This document shows, in pieces, positions 2,649 through 55,633 of a stretch of 64,000 nt of DNA (the first letter of the stretch is position 1; each line of letters begins with the position of its first letter). This DNA comes from a bacterium. GTDB lineage: Bacteria > Oederibacteriota > CAKKQC01. The notes beneath the pieces were generated by a model that did no database searches, had not been told where the DNA came from, and saw only the letters and a list, made by a program, of their open reading frames with translations. The position numbers and the translations under genes are program-made. Where the stretch lies: assembly GCA_919901855.1 (NCBI GenBank), contig CAKKQC010000028.1, forward strand, positions 62,001-126,000. Direction: 5' to 3'.

Positions 2649-2654
2649 GATAAT
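2649..2654 (+). promoter_or_regulatory. Extended -10-like element before the GT-C gene
   Basis: TGGGATAAT matches an extended -10 (TG-N-GATAAT). The GATAAT ends 7 bases before the ATG at 2662. There is no Shine-Dalgarno sequence between them, so the transcript would be leaderless or nearly so. No clear -35 is seen. Confidence 0.4.
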
Positions 2655-2661
2655 TACCCGG

Positions 2662-5004
2662 ATGCGAAGCGGTTTCCCCGGCCCTGCGGTGTCCCTGGCG
2701 GCGCTCCTTCTGGCGCTCGCGGCCCATCTCCAGCATCCCGTCGTGCTCGGCCTCCCGGCCCTCCGTCCCGACCTCCTGCCGATCGCGCCGCTCGCGTGCC
2801 TCATGGGGCTGGCGCGATCCGGCGGTCTCCTCGTCCTCGCCGCCGCCGTGCTCGCGGGGTGGTGGGCGTGGGGGCGGGAGGCGACGCGCTGGCTCGCCCG
2901 GACCCGTTCCGGCTGGCCTTTCGAGCTGGCCGCCGGGCTGATGGCCGGCTCGCTCGCCGCCGGCGGCCTCGGGTTCGCGGGACTCCTGTTCCGGCCGGTG
3001 CTCGGCGCCCTCCTGGTGGCCGCCGTCATCCCGGCCGTCCGGGTCCGGGCATGGCGGGGCCCGGCGCGATGGCTGGGGGCTGCCCGCTGGCCGGCCATAT
3101 GGCCGGCGCTGTGCCTGTTCCCGGCGGTGCCCTGGCTGGTGGTCGCGCCGCTGCTCCCGGTCACGGGTGTCGACATGCTCGAGTACCACGCCGGCTTCCC
3201 CGTGCTCTGGGGGATGCTCCACCGGATCCACTTCGAGGCCGGCAACCTGCTTTGCACGATGCCGCTCGGGTTCGAGCGGCTGGCCGTGCCGCTCTACGTC
3301 CTGGGGGCCGGCGGCGCGGTCGCGTGGACCCAGCTCATCCTCCTTGCGGCGGCGGGGGTGGCGGTCGCGTCGGCCCTCGACGACGCCATGGGCGGCTGGC
3401 TGGTCGCGGGGTTCGGCGCGGCGCTCCTGCTCGCGTGGCAGGGGCATCCCGACATCGGGCTCGTTTTCGCCGCGGCGCTGGCCGTGCGGGCGGCCCGGAC
3501 GGGCCGGCCGGTTGAGACCGGGCTCGCGTGCGCGCTCGCGGCGTTCAGCAAGTATCAGGGCGCCGCGCTCGCGGCGGCCTGTGTGGTCTCGACCGCGCCT
3601 TGGGACGCGGGGCGGCGGCTCCCGCGCTGGCTCCTCGTCGCGTGCGCGGTCGCGGTGGCGCCGAACCTGGCCTGGCTGGCGCGCAACGCCTGGCTGACCG
3701 GGAATCCCGTGTACCCTTTCGCGTCGCATGTCTTCCCGTCCCTCGCGTGGACGGACTGGAATTCGCAGGTGCTCTGGGCGTCGATGCCGAACGCCTCGGT
3801 CGAGATCGACGGCGCCTTCCCCGAGGACCGGGCGCGCCAGCTCGCGATGGCGTTCTGGGCTGGTACGAAATCGGTCTTCTTCAGCCCGTACGCGGCGCTG
3901 GTCTACATCTGCCCCGCCATCCTGTTGGTGCGCGGGGTCCCGCCCCTCGCGCGCCGGCTCGCGGTCCAGGGGCTCGTCTTCGGGCTCGTGTGGCTCCTGC
4001 CGATCCCGAAGTTCGGCCGCTACCTAGTGCCGGGGCTGATCCCCGTGCTCGGGGCGTGGTGGCTGGTCGCGAGGGCGAGCCGGTTCGCGGTCCCGGTCGC
4101 GGCCGTCTGCCTCGGCGTCGAAGCGCTCGTCTTCGTGGTCAATGCCCGCGAGACTCCGATCGCACCCGAGCGCGTGCTGACTGGCACGGCGTCCGCCGCC
4201 GCGTACCGCCGGGCGGCGCTGGGCGGATACCAGGACGCCGTCGACTGGCTGAACGCGAAAGGGTTCGCGTCCTCGCGAACCCTCGTCATAGGCCAGGGGT
4301 ACGGCATGGGACTGTCGTGTCCCTGGTCCGCGAGCAACGAGACGGGCCGGCCCGCGTGGCTGGGCGCGGCCGGGGAGGTAGCGAACCCGGTCCGGATGCG
4401 CGTGCATCTGCGGCAGGCGAACGTCACGACCGTCCTCTACAACCCGATCCGCGCCTACCACCGGCATCCCTACGCACTGGGCTACGATTTGTCCGAGCCG
4501 TGGCTCATGGCTTGGGGACACCTCTGGCGGCGCTGGGCGCGTGTCGAGCGCCCGCCTGATTCGTTCGACTGGACGGGCGCGTGGTGGATCTGGCGGCTCG
4601 ACGCCCGGCCGGGCGCGCCGCTTCCGCAGGCGTGGCTGCCGGGCGCCGAGCGGCTGTACCTCGACGAGACGGCCCTGCGGCGGGGTGAGGCCGACCCCGG
4701 CCGCCTCGCCCTCCAGCGCCGGGTGGCGGGGGACTTTGGTGTCGCGTGGTTCCAGCGGTCGATGCTCACATACCACGGCCGCCACGATGCCCCGCGCGCG
4801 GTTGCGGAGGTGGAGGAGGCGATCCGGCGGGGATTCGTGAGCCCCGGCGCGCTCAACGCCCTCGGAGTGTATCTCGACGCGGACGGCCGGATCGCGGAGG
4901 CCGCCCGACGGTTCCGGGAAGCCCTGGCGCTCGACCCGGGATACGACACGGCCCGCGCGAATCTCACCGAGCTCCTCGCGCGTTCAGCGGCGGGCAAGAG
5001 GTAG
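2662..5004 (+). CDS. Polytopic GT-C-like glycosyltransferase with C-terminal TPR
   Basis: A 780-aa membrane protein. The first ~470 residues are a run of roughly ten or more hydrophobic helices with a periplasmic-type loop carrying VDMLEYHAGFPVLWG, the arrangement of GT-C family lipid-linked sugar transferases (dolichyl-phosphate-mannose-transferase-like). A soluble domain follows, then a tail of about 100 residues with TPR-like repeats (GALNALGVYLDADGRIAEAARRFREALALDPGY). The open frame extends upstream to 2122, but that part runs through lptE in another frame; the ATG at 2662 begins the hydrophobic protein. The donor and acceptor sugars cannot be read from the sequence. Two other genes in the window share this plan (20229-21974 and 32251-34563). 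Confidence 0.75.
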   Translation: MRSGFPGPAVSLAALLLALAAHLQHPVVLGLPALRPDLLPIAPLACLMGLARSGGLLVLAAAVLAGWWAWGREATRWLARTRSGWPFELAAGLMAGSLAAGGLGFAGLLFRPVLGALLVAAVIPAVRVRAWRGPARWLGAARWPAIWPALCLFPAVPWLVVAPLLPVTGVDMLEYHAGFPVLWGMLHRIHFEAGNLLCTMPLGFERLAVPLYVLGAGGAVAWTQLILLAAAGVAVASALDDAMGGWLVAGFGAALLLAWQGHPDIGLVFAAALAVRAARTGRPVETGLACALAAFSKYQGAALAAACVVSTAPWDAGRRLPRWLLVACAVAVAPNLAWLARNAWLTGNPVYPFASHVFPSLAWTDWNSQVLWASMPNASVEIDGAFPEDRARQLAMAFWAGTKSVFFSPYAALVYICPAILLVRGVPPLARRLAVQGLVFGLVWLLPIPKFGRYLVPGLIPVLGAWWLVARASRFAVPVAAVCLGVEALVFVVNARETPIAPERVLTGTASAAAYRRAALGGYQDAVDWLNAKGFASSRTLVIGQGYGMGLSCPWSASNETGRPAWLGAAGEVANPVRMRVHLRQANVTTVLYNPIRAYHRHPYALGYDLSEPWLMAWGHLWRRWARVERPPDSFDWTGAWWIWRLDARPGAPLPQAWLPGAERLYLDETALRRGEADPGRLALQRRVAGDFGVAWFQRSMLTYHGRHDAPRAVAEVEEAIRRGFVSPGALNALGVYLDADGRIAEAARRFREALALDPGYDTARANLTELLARSAAGKR

Positions 5005-5007
5005 AAT
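5002..5007 (+). promoter_or_regulatory. -10-like TAGAAT before the TamB-like gene
   Basis: TAGAAT overlaps the stop codon of the preceding gene and lies 12 bases before the ATG at 5020, with no Shine-Dalgarno sequence between. It could give a short-leader transcript. No -35 is evident. Confidence 0.3.
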
Positions 5008-5019
5008 CGAGTCATCCCC

Positions 5020-8000
5020 ATGTTGGCGCTGGCCCGATCGCACCTGCGTCTGAGCCTGCTCGCCGCCGCGGTCGTCCTCGGCGGAGTGCTCTGGCTCGTG
5101 AACGGGTGGGTGGTCCATCGCATCCTGCCGCCCTTCCTGCACAAGCAGCTCACGCTGGCCCTGCAGCGGGAGGTCGAGTTCGCGGACGTCGACACAAACT
5201 GGTTCACATACTTCGAGGTCAGGGGCGTCTCGGTCGCGAAGTCGGCCGATCCGAAGGACGGCACGCTATTCCGGGCCGGGAAACTGGTCCTTCGCTTCCA
5301 CCTCGTGCGGCTTCTCACGCATCTGAAGTCCAGCAACCCCCTGGCCGGGATCCGCCGGGTGGAGCTCATCGAGCCGTCCGTCGAGATCGCGCTCGAGCAG
5401 TTGAAACCCGCCCTCGAGCCCTCCGCCTCCAAGGCGGCCAAGGCGGCGCCGGCGAGGCCGTCGACGGGCCTGCCGACCCTGCCCCGTACCTACCTCGGGA
5501 TCAAGAGTGGGACGATCGTGCTGACCCGGCGCGGGGTGCCGGTCCTCGAGATACGGCGGTTCAAGGCGGAACTGGACTTGCGGGATCTTCCGCGGATTGG
5601 CGGCAATGTCGGCTTCACTATCGCTCCCGACTCCTCGGTGGCGGTCGACGGGAGCTGTCACTTCAGCCTCAAGCAGTTCAAGGGCAACCTGTCGCTCGAG
5701 CATCTGGACCTGGGCCAGCTCTCGGACTTCGCCCGGATGCTCGATCCTTCCCTCGCCATTCGCGTGGGCGGCCTCTTCGACGCCAAGCTCGAGATCGAGG
5801 GCGGGTTCATGACCACGGCCGAGATCTGGAACGAGACGTTCGGGCGCGGGTCGCTGCGGCTGTCGCGGGGGAGCCTGTCCCTGCGCGGCAGTCCGCTCAT
5901 CACCGACGCCGAGACGACGGGGACGCTCGACGAGCGCCAGCTCACGCTCGAGACGCTCACGGGCCGCGTGCTCTCGGGGGCCTTGTCGGCAGCCGGAAGT
6001 TTCGGCAACCTGGGACTGGGCCGCTGGAAGCTCAAGGGCAAGCTCGAACAGGTTCCGATCCGGGCCCTGCGGGCGCTGTCGCCGGGCCTGCCGCCGACGC
6101 TCGATGGCGTATTCTCATTCGGGTTCTCCGCGAGCGGCACCGGTCATGCGCCAGTCTTCACGGGTCGGATCGCGTCGCCGGCCCTCTGGATCCCGGGCGT
6201 GCGTGTCGAGAACCTCGTCGCCGAGATGACCTACACGATCCGGGACTTGGCGCTCACTAACCTACGGGCGAACCTCTGGGAGGGCGCGATCCACGGGGAG
6301 GGGGCCCTGCGGGGCCTCGACGGAGCCGCTCCCGCGATCCGGCTGAACCTCCAGGGGATCGGGTTCAATGTGGCGCGGACCCCGCTCGGGGACTCGTACG
6401 CGGGGACGGCCGAGGTCGACGCCAACCTCGATGGACCTCTCGACCGGCTCGTGGGGACCCTGTCCGCTAGGCTAAACCAGCTCCGGGCGCGGGGCCTCGC
6501 GGTCGGCGACCTCAAGGCCGCCGCGACGTTCGAGGGTGGGAAGATCCGGATCGACGCGAAGACCGACAAGGGAACGGTGACGGCCGCCGGCACCCTCGTC
6601 CTGTCGCCCGTGCTCGCCCTCGAGAACTGCCGGGTCGACGTGCGGGAGCGCATCCCGGTGCTCATCGCGCTGGCGGGCGTCGACCCGCCGCCGGGCTTCG
6701 ACGGGCGCGTGTCGGGATCGGTGCGGGCCGAGGGGCCCGTCAGCGACCCGGTGGTGACGGCCGAGGCCGTCGCTTCCGCGGTCCGGTTCGGGCGGATCGT
6801 CATCGGCGACATCATCCGCGTGCCCAGGTTTACTTTCCGGAAGATGACGCTCGAGGTTCCCGCGGACGCGCCGGCCGAGCTGGAGTGGACGTCCGAGCAC
6901 ACGACGGTTGCGATGTCCGGTGCCGTGCCCGTCGGGGCCTTCTCGGGCACCGGCAAGGAGGAGCTGCGGTTCCATCTCGAGTGCGCGGGAGGCCGGCTCG
7001 AGCTCCTCAAACGGCTGGACCTTGTCAAGGCCGCCACCGGGTCCTTCGACCTCGTGCTCGACCTGACCGGGACGGCTGCGCAGCCGACGTGGAAGATGCT
7101 CCGGTTGACCAGCTCGGGCAAGCGGCTCGTGCTCAAGGAGCCGGTGTTCGAGAAGGACTTCGACGGCTGGAACCTGAACGTGGTCATGGAGAACGACGAG
7201 GGGCTGATCAAGGACACGTGGCTCGCCATCGACCGGCAGCAGCAGACGTTCAACGGCCGGTTCTCCATGCGCGGCTGGCTGCCGGACGAGGTGGACGTGC
7301 AGACGGCGACGGTCGCGGCGAAGGCCAAGCACCTGCGCGGGCTGCCGTTCGCCGTCGAGGATGTGGCCGAGATCCGGGCCCGGCTCAACGCGCACCTGAT
7401 CATGCGGCCGGGGGAGAAGGAGATCATGCTCACGGGGCCGGACCCGGAAAAGGGCGCGGAGCTGATCCTGTCGAGCGGCGTGATCCGGTACGCGGGGCCG
7501 AAGATGGGAGAGGTCGCGGCGTCTCCAGTGCTGCCGTCGGTCCGTGGCCGGTCGGCACCCGCCGTCGCGACCGCACCGGCGGCACCTGCCGTCGCCGCTG
7601 TAGCGGCGCCCGCCGCGGCGGCCGCTCCGCCGGGTCTCTTCGAACGGTTCTACGCCAACCTCAACTTCATCGGAACGGTCGAGATCGGGTCCAACGTCGA
7701 GTTCGCGCCGCGGACCGTCGTGGGCAAGGCGGGCCAATCGTTCTTCAAACTGTTGACCGGGGACCGGGCGGCGCTGAAGAAGCTGTTCCACCAGTACGCG
7801 ACGAGGGCGGGCTGGATGGAGTTCAGCCGCGACGCCCTCCTGACCTTCGACCTCAAGATCAAGGACGGGAGCCACCTCAAGGTTTCGAAGATGGGCGACG
7901 CCCTCCGGGCCGAGGGTGAGCTCGCGCTCGAGCCCGGGGGCCGCGTAACGCTGGGGCCGCCGGGTCTCGCCGTGGACTTCACCATCGTGGGCGACCCCGG

Positions 8001-13867: not shown

Positions 13868-13879
13868 GAGACCATCCCC

Positions 13880-15250: not shown

Positions 15251-15256
15251 ATTATC
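15251..15256 (-). promoter_or_regulatory. Extended -10-like element for the tolC-RND pair
   Basis: On the minus strand TGGGATAAT (TG-N-GATAAT) ends 9 bases before the GTG at 15241. It is the same nonamer as the one upstream of 2662. A convincing -35 at normal spacing is not seen. Confidence 0.4.
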
Positions 15257-18045: not shown

Positions 18046-18056
18046 AGGATACAATA
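18046..18056. promoter_or_regulatory. Overlapping divergent -10 boxes between uvrB and the TPR gene
   Basis: Plus strand: TACAAT (18050-18055) lies 10 bases before the uvrB ATG. Minus strand: TATCCT (18051-18046) lies 8 bases before the ATG at 18037. The two hexamers share two bases, so any -35 contacts must fall inside the opposite coding sequence. Neither has a clear -35. Confidence 0.45.
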
Positions 18057-18065: not shown

Positions 18066-20183
<2,118 letters not shown>

Positions 20184-22727: not shown

Positions 22728-23710
22728 CGCGCCTTTTGCCTGCGCATCGCGGCTCGGAGGGCGGGGGCAAGCTTCCGCCGGGCCTCGGCGATCGTCATGT
22801 GCTCGAGCGTGCAGCCGGCGGCGTACGCATGCCCGCCGCCGCCGAAACGCTGGGCGATCCGGTGCAGGGGCAGGGACATCTTGGCGCGCAGGCTCGCGCG
22901 GACGTCCCCCTGCGGCGTCTCCCGCAGGAACACGGCGACGCAGACGCCGCCGATGGCGCGCGGGTACTCGACGAAATCCTCGGCGTCCACCTCGGTGGCG
23001 CCGAAGTCCGTGAAGTCCTTCCGGGCGAGGGACATCCACGCGACGCCGTCCGCGACCGCGAGGGTGCCCAGGGAGCGGCCGAGGAGCCTGAGCCGGCGGA
23101 CGGGGAAGCACTCGTAGACGGCCTCGCCGACCTCGCGGGGGTTGACCCCGGCCTCGACAAGCCGTGAGGCGAGGTTGAGCACCTCGGCGGTCGTGTTGTT
23201 GTACCGGAAGCCCCCTGTCTCGGTGTAGAGCCCCACGTAGAAGGCGGTCGCGATGTCGCGCGTGAGCGGGACGCCCAGCCGGATCCGGAGCGTCTCGGCC
23301 AGCAGGATCTCGGCGGGCATGGTCGCGTCGACGAGGTTGATGTCGCCGTATCCGCGGTTGCCCAGGTGGTGGTCCATGTTGACGAGCACCTTCGCCCGGC
23401 GGGCGACGGCGCCGCACACGCCGGCCCGCTCGGGGGTCGCGCACTCGAGCGTGAAGGCGAGGTCGAACCGGCGCGGCAGTTCGGCGGCGCCCGTCCGGAT
23501 CCGGCGGGACCAGGGGAGGAACCGGTACCGGGCCGGCACCGGGTCCTCGTTCGCCATCGTGACCTTGAGCCCGAGGCGGGTGCAGGCGATGGCGATGGCG
23601 ATCTGGGAGCCCAGCGCGTCCCCGTCGGGCCGCTGGTGCACCGTCAGGAAGACCGACCGGGACGCGCGGATGGCGCGGACGACTTCGTCGAAGGGCAGGG
23701 GATGGGGCAT
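22724..23710 (-). CDS. nrnA: DHH family oligoribonuclease/pAp phosphatase (NrnA-like)
   Basis: A 328-aa DHH/DHHA1 protein that degrades 2-5-nt RNAs and can dephosphorylate pAp. Motif I HQRPDGDALGS (H25, D29, D31), the DHH motif in VNMDHHLGNRGYGDINLVD, and the DHHA1 glycine loop RFGGGGHAYAAGC at the C-terminus are intact. Its ATG overlaps the rbfA stop codon (ATGA), and its own stop overlaps the phosphoesterase start. An nrnA next to rbfA in the nusA-infB operon is a common arrangement in several phyla, here without truB in between. Confidence 0.92.
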   Translation of the reverse strand: MPHPLPFDEVVRAIRASRSVFLTVHQRPDGDALGSQIAIAIACTRLGLKVTMANEDPVPARYRFLPWSRRIRTGAAELPRRFDLAFTLECATPERAGVCGAVARRAKVLVNMDHHLGNRGYGDINLVDATMPAEILLAETLRIRLGVPLTRDIATAFYVGLYTETGGFRYNNTTAEVLNLASRLVEAGVNPREVGEAVYECFPVRRLRLLGRSLGTLAVADGVAWMSLARKDFTDFGATEVDAEDFVEYPRAIGGVCVAVFLRETPQGDVRASLRAKMSLPLHRIAQRFGGGGHAYAAGCTLEHMTIAEARRKLAPALRAAMRRQKAR

Positions 23711-24132
23711 CAAGGGGCTCCGTCCCCACCGCCCCCGCTGCCGCCATCCCCCGTGCCGCCCGTGGTGGGGCCCCCGGTCCCACGTTCGCGCTTGATCGCG
23801 TTCAGGAGGTCGGTGATGTGTTGGGCGTGGACCAGCCCGTCGTCGTACTCGAACGCGAGCTCGGGAATGGTCTTGAGCCGGAGCCGGAGCTTGAGCTCGC
23901 GATGGATGAATCCCGAAGCGTGTGTCATCCCCGCGATGAGGGCGCCGCGCTTGGGCTCTTCGAGCAGGGTGGAGACGTGGACGTGGGCTCGCGCGAGATC
24001 GGGCGATATACGGACTCGCAGGATCGTGAAGTCCTGGTCGGCGACCCGCGGGTCGTGGACCGTTCTCCGGATGATGTCCGTGAGTTCCTCTCGCAGCTGG
24101 TCGGCCACGCGCAACAGCCGTCGGTTCCCCAT
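23710..24132 (-). CDS. rbfA: Ribosome-binding factor A
   Basis: A 140-aa KH-like 30S maturation factor needed for 16S rRNA 5'-end processing. The core (RVADQLREELTDIIRRTVHDPRV...FTILRVRISPDLARAHVHVS) is typical. The C-terminus adds an unstructured Gly-rich tail of about 22 residues not needed for the fold. The ATG at 24132 starts the conserved part; the frame is open up to 24180. TACAAT lies 13 bases before this ATG inside the short gap after infB, so an internal promoter is possible. Confidence 0.9.
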   Translation of the reverse strand: MGNRRLLRVADQLREELTDIIRRTVHDPRVADQDFTILRVRISPDLARAHVHVSTLLEEPKRGALIAGMTHASGFIHRELKLRLRLKTIPELAFEYDDGLVHAQHITDLLNAIKRERGTGGPTTGGTGDGGSGGGGDGAP

Positions 24133-24145
24133 GATGTCAGGCCCG

Positions 24146-24151
24146 ATTGTA
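24146..24151 (-). promoter_or_regulatory. -10-like TACAAT upstream of rbfA
   Basis: It lies on the minus strand in the gap between infB and rbfA, 13 bases before the rbfA ATG. It is a candidate internal promoter for rbfA-nrnA-phosphoesterase-GT. The -35 is not clear. Confidence 0.3.
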
Positions 24152-24204
24152 GCGTAATTCAGGCGGCCCGGACGGGCCAACGCGCGAACGTGGTGGGCGC
24201 CCCC

Positions 24205-26388
24205 CTAGAGGCGGAGCTTCTCCTGCACGAGGGTCTGCGTGTAGACCTCAAGGACGTCGCCGACCTGGAAGTCGTTGAACCCCTCGGTCGAGAGGCCGCA
24301 TTCGTACCCGGCGCCGACCTCGCGGACGTCCTCCTTGAACCGGCGGAGTCCCGAAATGGTGGCGTCGCGGACGACCGCGCCGCCGCGCATGACGCGGACC
24401 TTCTCGCCCCGGAGAATCTTGCCGGAGGTCACGAAGCATCCGGCCACCGTGCCGCGCGGGGTCCGGAAAGTGGCGCGCACCTCGACCCGGCCCAGTGACA
24501 CGTCCTCGACCTTGGGGGCGAGGAGCCCTTCCATCGCCTTCTTGAGGTCCTCGATCGCGTTGTAGATGATGTCGTAGGTCCGGATCTCGACGCCCTCCTG
24601 GCGGGCGAGGGGTTCGACCTGTGGCTCGATGCCGACGTTGAAGCCGATGATGACCGCGTCCGACGCGGCGGCCAGTGCGATGTCGGAGGCGTTGACCGGG
24701 CCGACGCCCTCGTGGATGGGCCGGAGCTTGACCTGCTCGTTCGTGAGCCGGCCGAAAGCGCCCGAAACGGCCTCGAGCGAGCCCTGGACGTCCGCCTTGA
24801 GGATGAGGTGCAGTTCCTTGGTCTCGCCCGCCTTGACGCTCTGCGAAACGTCCTGGAGCGTGATGTGCTGGCGGCGCAGGCGCTCCGTGTTGACGCGGGT
24901 GAGGTGCGCCTCGGCGAGGTCGCGCGCCTCCCGCTCGTCGGTCACGACGCGCAGGGGGACGCCCGCCTCGGGGACCGCTGAGAGGCCCAGGAGCTCGATC
25001 GGCGTCGACGGCCCGGCCTCCTTCAGGGTGTGCCCCTTGTCGTCGAGCATCTGGCGCACGCGGCCGGACGCGCTGCCCGCCGTCACGATGTCGCCCGCGT
25101 GCAGGGTGCCGTGCTGGATGAGGACGGTGGCCGTGGGGCCGCGGGACTTGTGCATGCGCGCCTCGAGCACGGTCCCCTCGGCCGGTCCGTCCGGGTCCGC
25201 CCGGAGTTCGAGTAGCTCGGCTTCCAGCAGGAGCATCTCGAGCAGCTTGTCGATCCCGGTCTTGGTCCGGGCTGAGACGTCGACCATGATCGTCTTGCCG
25301 CCCCACTCCTCGGGGTTGAGGCCCTTGCCCGAGAGCTCCTGCCGGACGCGCGCCGGGTTGGCCCCGGGCTTGTCCATCTTGTTGACCGCGACGACGATGG
25401 GCACGCCGGCCGCGTTGGCGTGGTCGATCGCCTCGACGGTCTGCGGCATGACGCCGTCGTCCGCCGCGACGACGAGGACGACGACGTCGGTCACCTTGGC
25501 GCCTCGCGCGCGCAGGGCCGTGAAGGCCTCGTGGCCGGGCGTGTCCAGGAACACGACCTCACCGCCCTTGGCCAGGTGCACCTTGAAGGCCGAGATGTGC
25601 TGCGTGATGCCGCCGGCCTCGCCCGAGGCGACGTCGGTGGACCGGATCGCGTCCAGGAGGCTCGTCTTTCCGTGGTCGACGTGCCCCATGATCGTGACCA
25701 CGGGCGCGCGGGTTTTCTGGTTCGCGGAGACCGCACGGGCGGGCCCGGCGGCTGCTCTTGCAGCCGGGGGGTCCGGCACGTCGAACTCGAACTTCTTCGC
25801 GATCATGCGGACGACCTCGAGGTTGATCCGCTGGTTGAGGGTGATCATCTTCATCTCTTTTTCGGTAAGCAGGGCCTTGATGATCTCGGAGGCTTTGAGG
25901 TCGAGCGATCGCGCCAGTTCCACCAGCGTGACCGGCCCCGTGTACTTGTACACCCGTCGGGTGGGCGCGGGCTTGGGGGTCGGCGGCGGTGGTGGGGTAG
26001 AGACGGCAGGTGCGGGTGCGGTCGCGACGGCGGGCTCCGACCGGCCTGGGGCCTTCGCCGGCACCGGATCTGCCGCCGGGGCCAGGGGCGCAGCCACCGT
26101 CGGCTTCGATGCCGGGACGGCGGGGGCCGCGGCCGCAGTCTTCGCTGGCGACGACGCCGGGGCTGCAGCGGCCGCGGGCGCGGCGGCCGGGGCCGTTGGT
26201 GTCGCGGCCGGTGCGGCGGGTGCCTTCACTACCGCGCCGGTGAAGTGTTCGAGCGCCGCATCGTGCTGCGGCTGGGTCAGCGACGCGATCGCGCTCTTCG
26301 CCGGCAGGCCCTTCTCCTTGAGGAAGGCTATGAGCTCCTTGCTCGTGATGCCGAGCTCCTTCGCCAGCTTGAAGACGGCGACGGCCAT
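24205..26388 (-). CDS. infB: Translation initiation factor IF-2
   Basis: A 727-aa GTPase that places fMet-tRNA on the 30S subunit. An N-terminal IF2_N domain ([27 protein letters not shown]) is followed by an Ala/Pro linker (about residues 50-145), a second IF2_N-like module ([21 protein letters not shown]), and then the G domain with G1 GHVDHGKT (residues 235-242), G3 DTPGHEAF and G4 NKMD. Domains II-IV complete the protein. Length is in the short range for IF-2. Its ATG overlaps the nusA stop codon (ATGA). ylxR and rplGA-like genes often found between nusA and infB are absent. Confidence 0.97.
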
Positions 26389-27659
26389 CAGGTGCCCGCC
26401 TTGTCCGGCGACTCTGCGGCCGGGGCCGCCGGAGCGTCAGCAGTCGGCTCCGTCGGGGCTGCGGGCTCCGCGCTCGGCATCGCCGGTTCTGTGGACGGTT
26501 CGACGGGCGCCATCACATCCCCGGCGGCCTCCGTCGGGGCGGCGCCTTCGGCCGGGGCGGCACCTTCCACCGGCGCCGGTACGGACGTGCCGTCGGCCAC
26601 CGTGCCCTCAGCGGGCCCTCCGCGCAGTTCCGCCTCGGTCATGATCTCGACTTTCCAACCCGTGAGCTTCGAGGCGAGCCGCGCGTTCTGCCCTCCGCGG
26701 CCGATCAGGTGGGTGAGCTGGTTGTGGTCCGTGGCCACGGCGATCATGGACCGCGCGGCGTCGTCCTTGACGACGCGCGTGGGCTTCGCGGGCGAGAGCG
26801 CGTTGATCAGGAACGTCTCGGGATCCTCGGCCCACATGACGACGTCCATCTTCTCGCCGTGCAGTTCCTGCACGACGGCCTGAACGCGCATGCCCTTCAT
26901 GCCGATGCAGGCGCCGACGGGGTCCACGTTGCGGTCGTGGGACATGACCGCGACTTTCGACCTGGAGCCGGGCTCGCGCGCGACGGCCTTGATCTCGACG
27001 ACGCCCTGCGCGACCTCGGGGACCTCGGCTTCGAACAGGAAGCGGACGAGTTCCGGGCGGCTCCGGGACGCAATGATGTGGGGGCCGCGCGGCGTCATGG
27101 TGACGTCCGCGACGTAGACCTTGAGGTGCTCGCCGGGCCGGTAGTCCTCCTTCGGGATCTGCTCGCTGCCCGGCAGGACGGACTCGACGTCGCCGAGGTC
27201 GAGGATGACAAGCTTGCCGCGGCGCTGCTTGACGACGCTCGTGACGGCCTTCCCGATCTTGTCCTTGAATTCGCCGTACTGGCTCTCGCGCTCGACCTCT
27301 CGGACGCGCTGGAGCACGATGTGCTTCGCGGTCTGGGCCGCGATGCGCCCGAGATCGTCCATGGGAATCTGGATCGTGACCTCCTCGCCCGCGGCCGCGT
27401 CGGCGCGCGTGCGCTTCGCTTCCACCAGCGAGATCTCGTCCGGCGTGGCCGGTTTGCCCGCCACGACGACGCGCTTGACCGTGACCTTCATGTCGCCGGT
27501 CGCGTCGCTGTAGAGGACTTCGACCCGCTCCGGCGTGACGCCGAGCGTCTTGCGCGCCGCGGAGAGCAGGGCGGATTCCACGATCTCGCGGATGGTCTCG
27601 CGGCTCATGCGCTTGCCGCGCTCGAGCTGCTGGATGGCTTCGATGAAGTTGGGCTTCAC
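26388..27659 (-). CDS. nusA: Transcription elongation/termination factor NusA
   Basis: A 423-aa RNA polymerase-binding factor for pausing, termination and antitermination. Domain order: NTD (residues 1-125), S1 (about 130-200), KH1 with [31 protein letters not shown]2 with [23 protein letters not shown] low-complexity Ala/Pro/Glu tail of about 70 residues (355-423) replaces the acidic repeats of E. coli NusA. GTG start overlapping the rimP stop codon (GTGA). The tail resembles the IF-2 linker in composition. Confidence 0.96.
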
Positions 27660-31169: not shown

Positions 31170-31175
31170 TATGAT
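31170..31175 (+). promoter_or_regulatory. -10 box for a leaderless transcript
   Basis: TATGAT ends 7 bases before the ATG at 31183. CTGACC (31147-31152), 17 bases further up, matches TTGACA at 4 of 6 positions. Confidence 0.45.
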
Positions 31176-32247: not shown

Positions 32248-32253
32248 ATCCTA
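32248..32253 (-). promoter_or_regulatory. -10-like or ribosome-binding element before the DUF1844 gene
   Basis: Minus-strand TAGGAT lies 6 bases before the ATG at 32241 and includes the stop codon of the upstream gene. The internal AGGA at 7 bases from the ATG could equally act as a Shine-Dalgarno sequence; the two readings cannot be separated here. Confidence 0.25.
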
Positions 32254-34576: not shown

Positions 34577-35770
34577 CTAGAAGAGCCGGAGTAGGAGGCC
34601 GGAGGCCGGCTTGGGGAGGAAGAACGTCGACTTCTGGGGCAGGGTCTCGCCGTCGAACGCGATCTGCGTGATCTGCGCCGACGAGGGTGCCGGCAGGCAG
34701 CAGGCGAGCACGTGCGGCGAGCGTAGAGCGGCCTGGACGGCCTCGGCGGCATCCCGCGTGAAGTCGACGGCCTTCACCCGCACGAGCTGCGGGAGGAGGT
34801 CGTGCAGCCGCGCGACCTCGAGCTGGCCGCGGGGCGCCGTGCCGGCCGGGAGCGGCGGCAGGTGCAGGAGCCAGGCGCCCGCGGCCCGGGAGCTGAACCC
34901 GAGCACGCCGCGCGCGGGCGCGGCGAGGGCAGCGCCGGCGCTCCGGCCCAGCTTCTCGACCTTACCGAACCGCCCGCAGTCCTGCGGCAGGGACGCGGGC
35001 ACGGGCGCCTCGCAGGTGACGATGCGGTGATACGGCAGGATCTTGAGGCCCCGCTGCTCCGTGTTCGCGATGAGCGAGAGCATCCACTGGGCGTCGCGGT
35101 TGCGCCGGTGCCGGGCGCGGTAGAGCCAGGCCGAGTGGTAGCGGTGATGGCCGTCGGCGATGAAGAACGGCAGGCGGCGGACCGTGCGCTGGATCCGGGC
35201 CCGCGTCCGGGGCGCGTCGAGCGTCCAGAGCCGGTGGCGGCTCCCGGTCGCGTCGGCGGCCGCGATCGACGGAGGCTGGGCCTCGAGGCTCTCGAAAAGC
35301 AGGTTCATGGGGTCCGATGGAGAGCGGTAGAGCGAGATGATGGGCTCGAGGTTCGCGCGGGTGCCCTCCATGATCTTGAGCCGGTCCTCGACCGGGCCGG
35401 CGTGCACGGCCTCGTGCGGGAAGATCATGCCGGCCCCGAACGGCTCGAGCCGCAGGAGCCCGAGCACGCCCCAGAACTTCTGGACCGTTCCCTCGTGGAC
35501 GAACTCCTGGCAGTACGCGTAGAAGGCGGGTTGGGGATCCTGGACGAGCACGCCTTCGTGAATCCACCGCCGCAGGCGCGCGCCGATGCCGGGGTAGTCG
35601 CGGCGGCGGCCGGGCGTGCCCAGCGTGAGGTGGACGATGTTGTGCGCGTGGAGCGCCGCGAGCCGTTCGTGGTCAGCCGGGCTGATGATGTCGTACGGCG
35701 GCGCGAGCAGGTCGGGCAGGGCCCGGCTCGGGGGGAAGTGGACGCCCGGAAACGGCGCGATCATCGCCAT
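34577..35770 (-). CDS. DUF1015 family protein
   Basis: A 397-aa cytoplasmic protein of the DUF1015 family. Diagnostic parts are the N-terminal IAPFPGVHFPPSRALPDLLAPPYDIISPADHERL, the middle EDRLKIMEGTRANLEPIISLY, and FFIADGHHRYHSAWLYR. Some relatives in archaea act as free-serine kinases, but most members have no assigned reaction, so none is claimed here. The start is one of two ATGs (35770 or 35764); the frame extends further up into the radical SAM gene. It lies 7 bases after that gene's stop codon. A TACAAT lies 9 bases before the ATG. Confidence 0.82.
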   Translation of the reverse strand: MAMIAPFPGVHFPPSRALPDLLAPPYDIISPADHERLAALHAHNIVHLTLGTPGRRRDYPGIGARLRRWIHEGVLVQDPQPAFYAYCQEFVHEGTVQKFWGVLGLLRLEPFGAGMIFPHEAVHAGPVEDRLKIMEGTRANLEPIISLYRSPSDPMNLLFESLEAQPPSIAAADATGSRHRLWTLDAPRTRARIQRTVRRLPFFIADGHHRYHSAWLYRARHRRNRDAQWMLSLIANTEQRGLKILPYHRIVTCEAPVPASLPQDCGRFGKVEKLGRSAGAALAAPARGVLGFSSRAAGAWLLHLPPLPAGTAPRGQLEVARLHDLLPQLVRVKAVDFTRDAAEAVQAALRSPHVLACCLPAPSSAQITQIAFDGETLPQKSTFFLPKPASGLLLRLF

Positions 35771-35777: not shown

Positions 35778-37229
35778 CTATTGTAGGCCCTGCGCAGGAC
35801 CCCGTGTGCGGGAACGCGCACGCGATGCGAGGAGTACGAGGCCGCCGCGGACCATCTGGATCACGTGCTCCAGCCGCCGGATGCGGGCCAGGTACCGCCA
35901 GATGATGCGCGGGCGCAGGTAGAACGCGCGGTAGGCGCGCGCGGCCCACGTTCGCAGGGCCTCCGCCGTGAAGCCGCGGGGGACGAAGACGGGGTTCAGG
36001 AGGTTCATCTTCCGCCAGTCGTCGTCGAGCGTGCCATAGCGGAGCAGGTCCGCGGCGACGGCCGTGCCCGGCAGGGGCGTGAAGAAGCAGGTCTGGAAGT
36101 CCGACAGCGGGAGCCGGCAGGCGAAGTCGATCGTGCGCTGAACCGTCTCCGGAGTCTCGCCCGGCAGGCCCATCATGAAGAAGCCCTTGACCCGTATTCC
36201 GGCCTCGTCCGTGAGCCGGACCGCCCGCTCGATGTCCGGGAGCTTCGTCCGCTTCGCGATCCGGTCCAGGATGTCCTGGTCGCCGGACTCGATCCCATAG
36301 CCGATCTGCCAGCACCCGGCCGCCTTCATGGCGCGGAGGGCCTCGGGGTCGGCGTAGTTCACGCGGGAGTTGCACGACCAGGTTAGGTCGAGCCCGCGCT
36401 CGCGGATGAGCTCGCAGATGCGCAGGAGCCGTGGCTTCGCGAGCGGGAAGATGTCGTCGTAAATCGTGAGGTCCCGGACGCCGAACCGGCGGACGAGGAA
36501 CTCCATCTGGTTCACAACGTACTCGGCGGAGAACCCGCGCACGGCGTTCCCGAAGACGCTCCGGTCGCAAAATACGCAGAGCTCGGGACAGCCCCGGGCC
36601 GTGAACAGGGTGGCGGCCGGGAGGCGCCGGTACGTGTGCGCGGCGGGCCGGACCCGCCCGGGGAAGCCGGGCAGGAGGTCCCACGCCGGGAACGGCAGGC
36701 GGTCGAGGTCCCGGATCGGGGCGGGGCGCGCGGTCTCGGCGAACGTATCCCCGCGGCGCAGGACGAGGCCGGGCAGGTCCTCGGGGCGGCCGCCGTCGAG
36801 GAGCGACCGGAAGACCGGCACGATCGTGTCGTCGGCCTCGCCCACGACGCCGAGGTCGAACGCCGGGAACCGCCGCAGGGTGTCCGCGGGGAGTGCCGAA
36901 AGGTGGGGGCCCCCGAGGGCGATAGGGCGCGCGGGGTGCCGGTCCTTGAGGATCCCGGCCATCTCGGCGGCGTTGAAGATCGACGGCGTGAACGCGGTCA
37001 TCCCCACGGCGTCGGGCGCGAAGGCCTCGGCCTCGCGGGCCGCCTCCGCGTACCCGAGCTGGCGGGAAGGCGCGTCGATGACGGCGACCGCGAACCCGGC
37101 GTCGCGCAGGATCGCGGCGAGCCCGGCGAGCCCGAGGGAGGGCATCGTGTTGCCCACTCCCTTGAAGCGTCCGTACCGCTCCTCGAGGCTGTGCGGGGGA
37201 TTGACGAGCGCGACCCGGGGCTGACGCAT
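35778..37229 (-). CDS. B12-binding radical SAM protein
   Basis: A 483-aa enzyme. Residues 1-140 form a cobalamin-binding-like Rossmann domain (VALVNPP...SLGLAGLAAILRDAG...ALGGPHLSALP). It is followed by a radical SAM core with C214-x3-C218-x2-C221 (GCPELCVFC) that holds a [4Fe-4S] cluster. Later core motifs GIESGDQDIL and VKGFFMMGLPGETPETV are present. The His of the usual D-x-H-x-x-G B12 motif is not evident, so cobalamin may not be bound. Relatives modify lipids, hopanoids, porphyrins or antibiotics; the substrate cannot be deduced. It is divergent from the 37320 gene. Confidence 0.85.
   Translation of the reverse strand: MRQPRVALVNPPHSLEERYGRFKGVGNTMPSLGLAGLAAILRDAGFAVAVIDAPSRQLGYAEAAREAEAFAPDAVGMTAFTPSIFNAAEMAGILKDRHPARPIALGGPHLSALPADTLRRFPAFDLGVVGEADDTIVPVFRSLLDGGRPEDLPGLVLRRGDTFAETARPAPIRDLDRLPFPAWDLLPGFPGRVRPAAHTYRRLPAATLFTARGCPELCVFCDRSVFGNAVRGFSAEYVVNQMEFLVRRFGVRDLTIYDDIFPLAKPRLLRICELIRERGLDLTWSCNSRVNYADPEALRAMKAAGCWQIGYGIESGDQDILDRIAKRTKLPDIERAVRLTDEAGIRVKGFFMMGLPGETPETVQRTIDFACRLPLSDFQTCFFTPLPGTAVAADLLRYGTLDDDWRKMNLLNPVFVPRGFTAEALRTWAARAYRAFYLRPRIIWRYLARIRRLEHVIQMVRGGLVLLASRARSRTRGPAQGLQ
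35780..35785 (-). promoter_or_regulatory. -10-like TACAAT before the DUF1015 gene
   Basis: Minus-strand TACAAT ends 9 bases before the ATG at 35770 and overlaps the stop codon of the radical SAM gene. It is a candidate internal promoter giving a leaderless mRNA. No -35 is recognised. Confidence 0.35.
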
Positions 37230-37235: not shown

Positions 37236-37241
37236 GTTATA
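37236..37241 (-). promoter_or_regulatory. -10-like TATAAC before the radical SAM gene
   Basis: Minus-strand TATAAC ends 6 bases before the ATG at 37229. The surrounding GTTATAAC is itself palindromic. No -35 is clear. Confidence 0.35.
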
Positions 37242-37282: not shown

Positions 37283-37307
37283 GGTGGTACCACCCGGGGG
37301 ATATAAT
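37283..37307 (+). promoter_or_regulatory. Promoter with consensus TATAAT and a palindromic operator candidate
   Basis: TATAAT (37302-37307) matches consensus and lies 12 bases before the ATG at 37320. GGTGGTACCACC (37283-37294) is a perfect 12-bp palindrome occupying the -35 area; no good -35 hexamer is present. A second small hairpin (CCACCG-AAG-CGGTGG, 37273-37287) overlaps it. The arrangement looks like an activator or repressor site. Confidence 0.5.
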
Positions 37308-40448: not shown

Positions 40449-40454
40449 TACCAT
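40449..40454 (+). promoter_or_regulatory. -10 box for a leaderless transcript
   Basis: TACCAT ends exactly 7 bases before the ATG at 40462. TCGCCA (40426-40431), 17 bases further up, matches TTGACA at 4 of 6 positions. No Shine-Dalgarno sequence is present. Confidence 0.45.
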
Positions 40455-43109: not shown

Positions 43110-43117
43110 CGGGGCCA

Positions 43118-43167: not shown

Positions 43168-43179
43168 ATGTTTTAAGCC

Positions 43180-44232: not shown

Positions 44233-44255
44233 GGTGTTCCCTGGAAGGCTGACCG

Positions 44256-45152: not shown

Positions 45153-45156
45153 ACCG

Positions 45157-45639: not shown

Positions 45640-45649
45640 GGGGCCCGGA

Positions 45650-47482: not shown

Positions 47483-47483
47483 C

Positions 47484-48611: not shown

Positions 48612-48615
48612 TCCG

Positions 48616-50040: not shown

Positions 50041-51119
50041 AGCTTCCGCCCCTCGTCGAGCATGGCGAGGTAGTTGTCCAGGGGGATGTAGTTCGCGACC
50101 GTGTTGCCGGTCCCGAGGCAGAACCCGCCGCCGGGCTGGCAGGTCTTCACCGTCTCCCGCACCCGGGAGCGGATCCTCTCCTCGTCGGCCCGGATCAGGA
50201 AGTCGAGGTCGAGCCCGCCGAGCAGGGAGAGCCGGTGCCCGTACGCGACCTTGGCGTCCGTGATCTTCTCGATCGTGTCCTCCCACGAGTGGATTCCGTC
50301 CAGCTTCACGTCCTCGATCAGGTCCTCGAGAATCGCGGCGCGGCAGCCGCACGCGTGCAGGATGTACGGGTGGCCCGCGGCGTGCGACATCGCGGCCAGC
50401 CGCTTGTGGCCGGGCAGGACGAACTCGCGCATGTCCTTGGGGCTGAACAGGAGCTGGGTTTTGAACCCGAGGTCGTCGGACGCCCACGTGATCTTGACCC
50501 GCTTCGACTGGAGCATGACCTTGAGCCAGGCTTCCTCGCGTTCGACCACGCGCTTCGTGATCTCGGCGAGCAGGGGACGGTCCTCGTGGAGGGCGATGCA
50601 CAGGGTCTCGTACCCCATGAGCCAGCAGAGGTACTCGCAGAAGTGCCCCTGCCGCGCGACGATGCACATGTCGTCCGGCAGGTGCTTCTCGAACCACTCG
50701 AGCGCGCGGGTGTCCGCCTCGCCGACCTTCGGCCACGGGTACTTCTCGAGCTCCTCCCAGTTCGTGATGAGCCCCTTGTCCTCGTGGATCCATTTCCGCT
50801 CCCCGCGCTTCTGGCCGGCTTCCGTCGTGTCCTCGGCCTTCAGTCCCTCGCCGGTGTCCAGCCCGCCGACGGAGGTGCCTACCCACTCGTAGCCGAGGAA
50901 CCGCTGCATCGCGATCGACCGCTTCCAGCCGAAGTCGGGTGCCGACCGGTCGAGCCCCCTGGTCACGCCGTACCGCTGGTCGACGGCCTCCTCGATCTCC
51001 CAGTCCTGGAAGAGTTCGATATTGAAGACCCGCGACGGGGTGCCCTGCCGGCGGATGTTGCGGACGAGGGCTTCCCAGTCGAGCTTGTGAACCTCGGTGA
51101 ACGGTTTGAAGTCGCGCAT
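50037..51119 (-). CDS. URO-D-fold protein (corrinoid methyltransferase-like)
   Basis: A 360-aa protein of the uroporphyrinogen decarboxylase superfamily. The C-terminal half shows GHPYILHACGCRAAILEDLIEDVKLDGIHSWED and LSLLGGLDLDFLIRADEERIRSRVRETVKTCQPGGGFCLGTGNTVANYIPLDNYLAM, as in MtaA/MtbA-like methyltransferases and related enzymes. The HemE N-terminal signature (R-x-P-V-W-x-M-R-Q-A-G-R) is absent, so it is unlikely to make coproporphyrinogen. The start is ATG 51119 or 51128. It follows the GlpD-like gene almost directly, preceded by AAGGAG. Natural substrate unknown. Confidence 0.8.
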   Translation of the reverse strand: MRDFKPFTEVHKLDWEALVRNIRRQGTPSRVFNIELFQDWEIEEAVDQRYGVTRGLDRSAPDFGWKRSIAMQRFLGYEWVGTSVGGLDTGEGLKAEDTTEAGQKRGERKWIHEDKGLITNWEELEKYPWPKVGEADTRALEWFEKHLPDDMCIVARQGHFCEYLCWLMGYETLCIALHEDRPLLAEITKRVVEREEAWLKVMLQSKRVKITWASDDLGFKTQLLFSPKDMREFVLPGHKRLAAMSHAAGHPYILHACGCRAAILEDLIEDVKLDGIHSWEDTIEKITDAKVAYGHRLSLLGGLDLDFLIRADEERIRSRVRETVKTCQPGGGFCLGTGNTVANYIPLDNYLAMLDEGRKL

Positions 51120-51129
51120 GGGCGTCATC

Positions 51130-52752: not shown

Positions 52753-52758
52753 GGGTCC

Positions 52759-52768
52759 ATCATATAAT
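52759..52768. promoter_or_regulatory. Overlapping divergent -10 boxes between glpD and the 52776 gene
   Basis: Plus strand: consensus TATAAT (52763-52768) ends 7 bases before the ATG at 52776. Minus strand: TATGAT (52764-52759) ends 6 bases before the glpD ATG. The whole gap is 23 bases with no Shine-Dalgarno sequence for either gene, so both mRNAs would be leaderless and the two promoters should exclude each other. Confidence 0.55.
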
Positions 52769-52775
52769 CAGAGGG

Positions 52776-53621
52776 ATGCGTCTCGTTGCCTGCCTCCTTG
52801 GCCTGATCCTCGCGCGACCGGCGGCCGCGGACGGGGCCACCGACCCCGGGGGGGCGCTGGGCTCGACCAGCACCCGGCTGATGGGCGTCGTCACCGTCTT
52901 CGCCGGGTACGCGGGGACGTCCATGGGCAAGGTGAGGGCGGCCTTCGACGACAGCTACGGCGCGAGCGTCCGGGCGGCGCGGGACGCCGGCGGGTCCGGC
53001 ACGGCCTCGATCAGGACACCCGGGTTCTTCCAGTGGGGGGCGGAGGCCGGGATCGGGGCGACGGAGAATCCGGCCGGGTTCCTGGTGCGGTTCGTCTCGT
53101 ACGCGCCGGCGACCCTCACCGCCAAGATGGAGTACCAGCTCGGCGTGTTCTCGGTGCACGAGGAGACGAACGTGGATCTTTCCCTCGTGGCCGGGCTGGT
53201 CGGGCCCTGGGTCAACATCCGGGCGGGCGGGTTCAACATCCGGGGCACGGCACTCGCGGGTCTCGCCCGGCTGACCGGCACCTGGAAGATCGCGGGCGCC
53301 TCCACGTTCGACTTCAGCCCGTTCGGGATCTTCACTTCCACCTGGGGCGGAGACATCCCCGTGGAGGGGACCGACATGACCTGGGAGGTGGATCTCGAGG
53401 TCACGCGCGAGGTCGCGAGGAACGTCGAGGCCTTCGCCGGTCTCGGCTACGGCGGGGCCTCGATCGGCACGGTCAAGGTCAGCTCTAACCGGGACCTCGA
53501 CGGCGACGGGATTGCCGAGTACCCGGCCGGCATGGTCATGATCCGGGATGCGGAGGGCCGGCCGGTGCCCTTCGAGCTGGGCGGCATCCGCGCCCGCGCC
53601 GGCCTCCTCTTCCGGCTGTAG
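52776..53621 (+). CDS. Exported barrel-like protein of unknown function
   Basis: A 281-aa protein with signal peptide MRLVACLLGLILARPAAA. The mature part is Gly-rich with alternating strands (FLVRFVSYAPATLTAKMEYQLGVFSV, LAGLARLTGTWKI) and ends in IRARAGLLFRL, a terminal hydrophobic residue as in outer-membrane barrels. It resembles in plan, not clearly in sequence, the exported proteins at 28458-31944. The ATG at 52776 is supported by the signal peptide and by the TATAAT 7 bases upstream; the frame is open a little further up. Not recognised. Confidence 0.68.
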   Translation: MRLVACLLGLILARPAAADGATDPGGALGSTSTRLMGVVTVFAGYAGTSMGKVRAAFDDSYGASVRAARDAGGSGTASIRTPGFFQWGAEAGIGATENPAGFLVRFVSYAPATLTAKMEYQLGVFSVHEETNVDLSLVAGLVGPWVNIRAGGFNIRGTALAGLARLTGTWKIAGASTFDFSPFGIFTSTWGGDIPVEGTDMTWEVDLEVTREVARNVEAFAGLGYGGASIGTVKVSSNRDLDGDGIAEYPAGMVMIRDAEGRPVPFELGGIRARAGLLFRL

Positions 53622-53643
53622 CTCCCCACGGCTTCCCGCATGC

Positions 53644-53649
53644 TATGCT
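53644..53649 (+). promoter_or_regulatory. -10-like TATGCT before the HEAT-repeat gene
   Basis: TATGCT ends exactly 7 bases before the ATG at 53657. There is no Shine-Dalgarno sequence and no clear -35. Confidence 0.35.
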
Positions 53650-53656
53650 GGGCCCG

Positions 53657-55633
53657 ATGCACCGCATAGCCGTCCTCTGCCTGGCGGGTCTCCTCCTTGC
53701 CCGGCCCGCCGCCGCGGCGCCGTCCCTCTCCTCCGCCGACCCCGAAGAGGTCAAGCGCGCCGTCGCGAAGTTCCAGAAACTCGAGAAGGTCGAGCAGGAC
53801 CAGAAGCTCTCGGATCTCATCGACCGGCTCGGCCACGCCGACGAGGCGAAGCAGGTCGAGGCCGAGACCGCCCTCCGGAACCTCGGCGACCTCGCCGTCC
53901 CCGCGCTCGTGGGCGCCCTCAAGGTCCGTCGCGGCCGCCCGCCGCAGCGCGCCCGCATGGTCGCCGTCCTCGGTACGTCCGCCGGCCGCGGCTCCCCGGC
54001 GACACAAGCCGCCGTCCTCGATGCCCTCGCCTGGGTCCTGACCGAGGAGGCCCCCGTCGGCTCCGCGGCGGGGGAGGAGCTGTTCAAGGCCGGGGAGGCC
54101 GCCGTCCCGCTCCTCGCGAAGAAGGTCGAGGCCGGCGCCGACGGCGAGAAGGTCGAGTCGCTCAAACTCCTCGGCCGGCTCGGGGCCGCCGCTAGCCCAG
54201 CGATCCCGGCCATGACCGGGCTCCTGACCTCGTCCGCGGCGTCCGCGACCGCCAAGGACCAGGCTCTCGCAGTCCTCGAGCCGCTCTGGGGCGCGGAGAT
54301 GACCGTGCCGAAGGAGCTCTGCGACGGGCTCCAGGACCCCGCCTCGCGCTCCCGGCTCCTGCGGTTCTACGAGACCCGGAACCCCGGCGAGTGCCTCGAG
54401 CCGCTCGCCCGCCTCCTGCCGGCCGCCGAGCCCGCGGACCAGGTCCGAATTCTACGATCACTGGGCAAGGCGGGCGCCCCCGGCTTGGCGTTCGTCCTCG
54501 ACATGGACAAGGTCGCGACCGCCTCCGCCGCCCCCGCGGTCGCCTCCGAGGCCGCCAAGACGATCCAGTGGCTGATGGGGCAGGCCGGCGCGCCGGAGCT
54601 TCCGCTCGTCGCCGACGCCTTGCAGAAGGGGACCCCGCCGACGCGGAAGGAGGCCGCCGCCGCCGCGGGCCGGATCGGGGCCGCCGCGGCCGGCCTCGTC
54701 GCGCGCCTCGTCGCGAACCTCAAGCCCGGGAACGAGGCCCTCGAGACCGAGGTGCTCAAGAGCCTGGAGGCGATCGGGACGACGGCCGCCGTGGACGCCG
54801 CGAAGACCTACCTCGGCCGGCAGGAGATCCAGAAGAACATCGCCCTGCTCGCCTCCCCGAACCGCGCCGAGGTCCTGGGCGCGGTGCAGGGGCTCTTGCC
54901 CCACGGCAAGGCCGCCTGGGCCGCCGTTCCGGCCCTCGAGGCCCTGTTCGCCGGCGACGACTCCGCGGTGTCGCGGGAGGACACGGCCGCCCTCTACGGC
55001 GCCCTCGCCCGGACCCTCCGGGCCATCGGGACCAGGGACGCCCTCGCCGTCCTCAAGAAGTACCGCAAGGCCGTCATCTTCTACGAGGCCGAGATCCTGG
55101 ACTCGGACAAGCTGGCCCGGCTCAAGCGCGACCTCTGGGAGCAGAAGGCGTACGGGGAGGGCACCCTCTGGTCGTTCATGGAGCAGAAGGACGACACCTA
55201 CCGGGCGCTCTCGGAGTTCGAGAAGAAGCGGTTCCGGACCACCCACGGCGCCGAGATCGCCCGGCGGCAGGCGGAGGGCCGGTCCGCCTCCTGGGCCGTC
55301 GTCATCCCGGTCAAATTCGAGGACGCCAAGTACAGCTTCAAGGAGAAGCGCTTCAACCTCGACGCCTTCGAGGAGCTGACCTGGGGCGAGGACACGGTCC
55401 GGTTCGACCGGACCGTCACCATCCCGCCCGTTCTCGCGGACGAGACGGACGCCGAGGAGCTCGTCAAGGGCGGCAGGGAAGCCACCGTCACCGTCGTCTT
55501 CCGCAAGGCCCGGTACTACTCCCGCGCCGTCCCCAAGGGCCCCGCGGTCTCGGGCGTCACCGGCGAGGTGATCGCCGTCCGCTGCGAGATCCCCGGCCGC
55601 CCCCCCTCCGTCCGCTACTTCGGCGCGGACTAA
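53657..55633 (+). CDS. Exported HEAT-repeat protein
   Basis: A 658-aa protein with signal peptide MHRIAVLCLAGLLLARPAAA. Residues ~30-470 are HEAT-like helical repeats (LSDLIDRLGHADEAKQVEAETALRNLGDLAVPALVGAL and similar ..AVPLLAKKVEAG.., ..SPAIPAMTGLL..), a curved scaffold for protein contacts. The last ~150 residues form a different, charged, strand-rich domain (WAVVIPVKFEDAKYSFKEKRFNLDAFEELTW...TVTVVFRKARYYSRAV). An in-frame ATG at 53645 lies inside the TATGCT element; 53657 is preferred. The gene follows the 52776 exported protein by 35 bases. Function unknown. Confidence 0.7.
   Translation: MHRIAVLCLAGLLLARPAAAAPSLSSADPEEVKRAVAKFQKLEKVEQDQKLSDLIDRLGHADEAKQVEAETALRNLGDLAVPALVGALKVRRGRPPQRARMVAVLGTSAGRGSPATQAAVLDALAWVLTEEAPVGSAAGEELFKAGEAAVPLLAKKVEAGADGEKVESLKLLGRLGAAASPAIPAMTGLLTSSAASATAKDQALAVLEPLWGAEMTVPKELCDGLQDPASRSRLLRFYETRNPGECLEPLARLLPAAEPADQVRILRSLGKAGAPGLAFVLDMDKVATASAAPAVASEAAKTIQWLMGQAGAPELPLVADALQKGTPPTRKEAAAAAGRIGAAAAGLVARLVANLKPGNEALETEVLKSLEAIGTTAAVDAAKTYLGRQEIQKNIALLASPNRAEVLGAVQGLLPHGKAAWAAVPALEALFAGDDSAVSREDTAALYGALARTLRAIGTRDALAVLKKYRKAVIFYEAEILDSDKLARLKRDLWEQKAYGEGTLWSFMEQKDDTYRALSEFEKKRFRTTHGAEIARRQAEGRSASWAVVIPVKFEDAKYSFKEKRFNLDAFEELTWGEDTVRFDRTVTIPPVLADETDAEELVKGGREATVTVVFRKARYYSRAVPKGPAVSGVTGEVIAVRCEIPGRPPSVRYFGAD

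Follow-up and report, generated by a model that had tools for sequence, protein, structure and literature searches.

A 64,000-nt stretch of contig CAKKQC010000028.1 (positions 62,001-126,000; hereafter the window), from an uncultured high-GC bacterium whose genome comprises 4.68 Mb in 91 contigs, carries TANNNT boxes resembling promoter -10 elements a few bases before the start codons of several genes. Across the genome, approximately one in five promoter-proximal genes has a -10 box so near its start that the mRNA appears to begin at the start codon or, apparently, three bases before it. We propose that the 5' end lies at the start codon when 6-8 bases separate it from the box and one triplet upstream when the separation is 9-10 bases, with initiation that presumably depends on the 5' end; we assign this reading a probability of about 0.7.

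Gene starts were called by codon usage alone, ignoring upstream motifs in order to avoid circularity. This yielded 1,836 genes in 2.29 of the 4.68 Mb (GC content 69.5% in that part), to which all gene-based genome-wide counts refer. The gap is defined as the number of bases between the TANNNT box and the start codon, and expected counts were derived from offsets 20-80. Boxes at gaps of 6-10 precede 222 of the 1025 starts that are not operon-internal (22%), where 27.6 were expected, and 35 of 764 operon-internal starts. Of the 22 non-internal starts called in this way in the window, 5 have such a box, against 0.59 expected (binomial P = 2.5e-4). The original prediction, made from the window, had claimed an enrichment far above chance and had looked to a genome-wide peak at 6-10 bases as its decisive check; both were borne out. 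The peak is sharp and was found in every gene context. It is strongest for divergent genes, 33% of which have a box at a spacing of 5-10, compared to 3-7% at control offsets. The share of boxed starts is 21% for genes lying 20-59 nt behind a same-strand neighbour, 15% for those at least 60 nt behind, and lowest (4.7%) for operon-internal genes.

Several features accompany the peak. An extended -10 (TGnTANNNT) was found at 27% of boxes and at 5% of control offsets. Five or six matches to the -35 hexamer TTGACA occur in 5.7% of cases, versus 1.1% for a permuted consensus, so a -35 is missing for most boxed starts. Motifs resembling the Shine-Dalgarno (SD) sequence precede 9% of the starts with a box and 29% of those without one. 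The lack of a clear -35 and the scarcity of SD sequences, both noticed earlier in the window, thus extend genome-wide. The start codon is ATG in 81-100% of cases at gaps 6-10. By these features, TANNNT boxes behave as promoters. At gaps of 11, 12 and 13 we counted 14, 12 and 8 boxes, slightly above the background of about 5.5 per offset, and boxes at this distance were rejected as a further class. The four listed previously in the window (before 5020, 24132, 37320 and 55814) are present in the sequence but individually unsupported. The anti-SD of the 16S rRNA is intact (CCTCCTT). This rRNA carries the standard EUB338 site and has no Acid31 probe site, so the bacterium probably does not belong to the Acidobacteriota. 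A classical promoter, TTGACA-18-TACAAT, is located upstream of the rRNA operon (L121:1380-1501, G000:C22), showing that the housekeeping sigma factor uses a -35 there, unlike at the short-leader promoters.

The spacing between box and start is bimodal. We counted TAYNAT-N(k)-ATG over whole genomes without gene calls for k = 6-11, with k = 20 as background, in the window's own genome and in the one other genus of its family included in our phylum sample (45 genomes, 16 families). For k = 6, 7, 8, 9, 10, 11 and 20, the counts were 105, 120, 44, 88, 59, 27 and 21 in the former and 69, 50, 26, 59, 40, 16 and 7 in the latter. Both genera show humps at 6-7 and 9-10 separated by a dip at 8, which is significant relative to its neighbours (P = 1e-8 in the window's genome, 2e-4 in the other genus), as is the excess of k = 9 over k = 8 (P = 8e-5 and 2e-4, respectively).

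The position of the pyrimidine-purine initiator step in the window's genome differs between the two humps. It falls on the ATG in 74%, 73% and 52% of genes with gaps of 6, 7 and 8, and at -3 in 55% and 64% of genes with gaps of 9 and 10 (background 24%). An initiator on the ATG, the mark of a leaderless start, was therefore found at gaps 6-8 and not at gaps 9-10. Consequently, the leaderless interpretation advanced earlier fits the genes with gaps of 6-8, but those with gaps of 9-10, including the one at 35770 and uvrB, depart from strict leaderlessness, both in their initiator purine at -3 and in the dip of the histogram at 8. At gap 7, the initiator avoids offset 7 (13%), from which a leader of 1 nt would result. 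A purine directly follows the box in 87 and 88% of genes with gaps of 6 and 9, 67 and 73% with gaps of 7 and 10, and 45 and 64% with gaps of 8 and 11. This correspondence across gaps three bases apart indicates that the second hump is the first one with the start codon shifted by three. An expectation-maximization mixture of start position and leader length assigned 116 genes to a leader of 0 nt and 77 to a leader of 3 nt, with 10, 2, 2 and 1 genes having leaders of 1, 2, 4 and 5 nt. Bootstrapping gave 61-90 genes for the 3-nt leader and at most 26 for each of the lengths 1, 2, 4 and 5. Leaders of 3 nt would make up approximately 40% of the short-leader set. The ratio of 0-nt to 3-nt leaders is similar among divergent, distal and operon-internal starts, and codon adaptation differs only slightly between the two classes (medians 0.412 and 0.439, respectively; P = 0.03).

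For comparison, the same gene caller was applied to plasmid 1 of Deinococcus deserti (300 kb), pTT27 of Thermus (200 kb) and pRHL1 of Rhodococcus (450 kb). Pooled, they have 31, 16, 6, 4 and 4 boxes at gaps 6-10, that is, the first hump only (gap 9 versus gaps 6 and 7, Fisher P = 1.6e-4). The single 6-7 hump of this DNA is not what we see in the window's family, where a second hump at 9-10 is present in two genera. Within the phylum, k = 6 is enriched 5- to 10-fold relative to k = 20 in the window's family, and the other families show little or no enrichment; the short-leader habit is not phylum-wide and is strong just in this family. Two other families (f6 and f10; genomes G019 and G024-G028) show a weak excess of TAYNAT 6, sometimes 9, bases before ATG, for example 65, 40, 58 and 35 matches for k = 6, 8, 9 and 20 in G028. 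These families possibly represent intermediate stages of the habit.

A simple mechanism would connect these observations. RNA polymerase would begin approximately 7-8 bases beyond the box; where the starting base is the A of the ATG, the mRNA would be leaderless, and where the ATG comes one codon later, it would have a 3-nt leader. Such mRNAs have no room for an SD sequence, and the AUG is therefore presumably recognized in a 5'-end-dependent manner by 70S ribosomes, while operon-internal genes would use SD sequences with the normal anti-SD. We infer the actual 5' ends, 70S initiation and the cause of the preference for 0 and 3 nt from the DNA sequence. As to this cause, we tentatively suggest, at slightly less than even odds, a phase rule, by which leaders of 0 or 3 nt are standard, lengths of 1, 2, 4 and 5 nt are avoided, and ribosomes load the 5' terminus in codon register. 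Ribosomes loading in this way might keep the register with 0 or 3 nt and lose the frame when the leader is 1-2 nt long, and this would account for the missing leader lengths. An equally tentative part of this suggestion is a second initiation configuration, with the AUG in the P site and the extra leader triplet filling the E site.

Several observations weigh against a class of 3-nt leaders and lend themselves to other explanations. In the second genus, the -3 purine is present in just 47% of the raw gap-9 matches and the pyrimidine-purine step in 36% (background about 24%), so that the case for a 3-nt leader there is made mainly by the spacing. This would suit a scenario of ordinary leaderless promoters only, in which genes with gaps of 9-10 also start on the ATG, at a greater distance from the box, or are leadered noise. 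A distance of 6-7 bases is well documented for leaderless -10 boxes (PMC3160421, PMC12340547, PMC3898074), and a pyrimidine at -1 is frequent at gap 9 as well (67%; 56% in unboxed ATG genes). We nevertheless consider this scenario unlikely: a start 10 bases beyond the box exceeds the usual range, the initiator lies at -3 for gaps 9 and 10 in the window's genome, the dip at 8 recurs in two genera, and the second hump is missing from the Deinococcus, Thermus and Rhodococcus plasmids. This last comparison is itself tempered by the fact that the comparators are plasmids with few boxes. Similarly, the orthologues available from 20 contigs of the second genus (52 reciprocal pairs, median identity 56%) are too few and too diverged to show whether leader class is conserved; one pair with short spacing is boxed in both genomes, with gaps of 9 and 8. 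In the window, uvrB (gap 10) and the gene at 35770 (gap 9) have no clean pyrimidine-purine step at -3, and their start points are individually ambiguous.

Leader triplets one step from ATG are also modestly overrepresented (21% versus 14%, P = 0.02), ACG being the commonest, so that some of them could be non-standard start codons or the remains of decayed ones. Since 3 nt is exactly one codon, genes with gaps of 9-10 could begin one triplet ahead of the ATG, with a non-standard first codon on a leaderless mRNA, or that triplet could be a decayed former start. This is rather less probable still than ordinary leaderless promoters, because most of the triplets (GCC, ACC, GAC, AAC) are not near-cognate, because ATG accounts for 86-93% of the starts at gaps 9-10 and is thus under selection, and because start migration driven by decay should also yield leaders of 6 and 9 nt and occur in other leaderless clades. 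That the box is no promoter at all, being instead a translation signal (an AU-rich or S1 site) or an artefact of base composition at AT-rich starts, is very improbable. AU-rich stretches before starts are indeed ambiguous in some phyla (PMC5397173), but neither version accounts for exact spacing with a dip, the TGn extension, the initiator step, the almost complete lack of boxes at operon-internal genes, SD depletion and flat counts at other offsets. Transcripts beginning at the start codon or one triplet before it thus remain our preferred reading.

The boxes of the window are compiled in Table 1. All nine exact TANNNT boxes of the original prediction, as well as its three near matches (before 2662, 15241 and 37229), were read back at the positions and spacings given for them. 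The proportion claimed, nine of about 20 starts, proved slightly generous, because a same-strand gene lies 7-9 nt upstream of 32241 and 35770, and because 31183 and 53657 require a downstream alternative ATG. The gene at 18066 on the plus strand, and not the one near 2649, is uvrB (Pfam UvrB).

Table 1. Putative -10 boxes and near matches in the window (window coordinates; gap in bases).
Feature	Position	Strand	Gap	Start	Remarks
Near match GATAAT	2649-2654	+	7	ATG 2662	
TAGAAT	5002-5007	+	12	ATG 5020	Beyond enriched spacings
Near match GATAAT	15251-15256	-	9	GTG 15241	
Shared bidirectional -10 AGGATACAAT	18046-18055	both	8 (-); 10 (+)	18037 (-); 18066 (+)	TATCCT (-, 18046-18051), TPR gene; TACAAT (+, 18050-18055), uvrB
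TACAAT	24146-24151	-	13	ATG 24132	RbfA; beyond enriched spacings
-10 TATGAT	31170-31175	+	7	ATG 31183	Second in-frame ATG at 31171
-10 TAGGAT	32248-32253	-	6	ATG 32241	DUF1844 protein; upstream gene 9 nt away
-10 TACAAT	35780-35785	-	9	ATG 35770	DUF1015 protein; spacing class of 3-nt leaders
Near match TATAAC	37236-37241	-	6	ATG 37229	
TATAAT	37302-37307	+	12	ATG 37320	Beyond enriched spacings; unsupported as short-leader promoter
-10 TACCAT	40449-40454	+	7	ATG 40462	3-hydroxyisobutyrate dehydrogenase-like
Shared bidirectional -10 ATCATATAAT	52759-52768	both	6 (-); 7 (+)	52752 (-); 52776 (+)	TATGAT (-, 52759-52764), glpD-like; TATAAT (+, 52763-52768)
-10 TATGCT	53644-53649	+	7	ATG 53657	Second in-frame ATG at 53645
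TAGAAT	55797-55802	+	11	GTG 55814	C5 cytosine methylase; beyond enriched spacings

Boxes are present on both sides in 27 of 166 divergent gene pairs, and in seven of the 166 the opposed -10 hexamers overlap. Two of these seven pairs are in the window, one sharing AGGATACAAT (the TPR gene and uvrB) and the other ATCATATAAT, where 23 bp separate the two ATGs. In bidirectional promoters with a symmetric -10, the opposed start sites have been placed at separations of 18 and 23 bp (Warman 2026, PMC12825309). Here, too, the -10 hexamers overlap across strands, and the ATG-ATG distances of 18-28 bp are near those separations; the difference is that both products here appear to have short leaders and that the shared box constitutes nearly the whole intergenic region. 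The shared-box pairs match the geometry of these promoters, and two-way transcription from them is predicted.

Other genes of the window include the nusA-infB-rbfA operon at 23710-27659 (minus strand). The domain layout of its IF-2 is ordinary (IF2_N, GTPase, EF-G_D2, IF-2), hence nothing within IF-2 accounts for the short-leader habit. Positions 55814-58385 form a type II restriction-modification island of lower GC content (~61%). Besides the C5 cytosine methylase (PF00145), it encodes a protein of 269 aa with no Pfam match, perhaps the partner restriction enzyme, and at 57954-58385 (minus strand) a Vsr-like mismatch endonuclease, judged by eye; the latter two are candidates. The island is followed by a gene for a histidine-kinase-type ATPase (58792-61488). 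Elsewhere in the genome, four short contigs (C11, C20, C26 and C36) consist entirely of N.

Leaderless initiation is commonly regarded as a single situation, with the AUG at the 5' end and any added bases leading to loss of function. A lineage with comparable numbers of 0- and 3-nt leaders that avoids 1-2 nt would offer a natural test of how the frame is set at a free 5' end. Since a single family of this small phylum shows the habit strongly and the others show it weakly or not at all, the gain of leaderless expression should be traceable. On the practical side, start codons in such genomes will be misassigned by gene finders whose models allow for one -10 spacing only.

Genes led by a TA-type box and transcribed without a leader are known in Actinobacteria and Deinococcus-Thermus (Zheng 2011, PMC3160421; Cortes 2013, PMC3898074; Zhong 2025, PMC12340547). 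They have TANNNT a few bases before ATG or GTG, no conserved -35, no SD sequence and a pyrimidine-purine start on the ATG, and they coexist with SD-led genes. The genome studied here resembles them in these respects (as regards the start on the ATG, at gaps 6-8), with a genome-wide TANNNT peak about 10 bp upstream and SD sequences scarce in boxed genes and kept in others. Their spacing, however, is mainly 6-7 bp (Deinococcus), whereas here a 9-10 class with a putative 3-nt leader is added, and TGn is found at 27% of boxes compared to 7% in Mycobacterium tuberculosis. Transcription from the start codon is already known (Mycobacterium, Deinococcus); of a bacterial class of 3-nt leaders we found no account in the open-access papers searched. 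In published maps of leaderless transcripts, leaders have zero length apart from small tails (PMC3890552, PMC4983044, PMC3898074). Leaders of 1-10 nt are a minor tail in Corynebacterium glutamicum (80 versus 707 at zero; PMC3890552), and leaders of 1-5 nt number 317 versus more than 1,000 at zero in Haloferax volcanii (PMC4983044). There, as here, a few bases precede the start codon and leave no room for an SD sequence, but those are tails, with no 3-nt peak mentioned in the text consulted, whereas 3-nt leaders would represent about 40% here. Mammalian mitochondrial mRNAs likewise have leaders of at most 3 nt, yet three extra nucleotides make initiation on them very inefficient in vitro (PMC4099522); the leader length that is harmful there appears to be favoured here.
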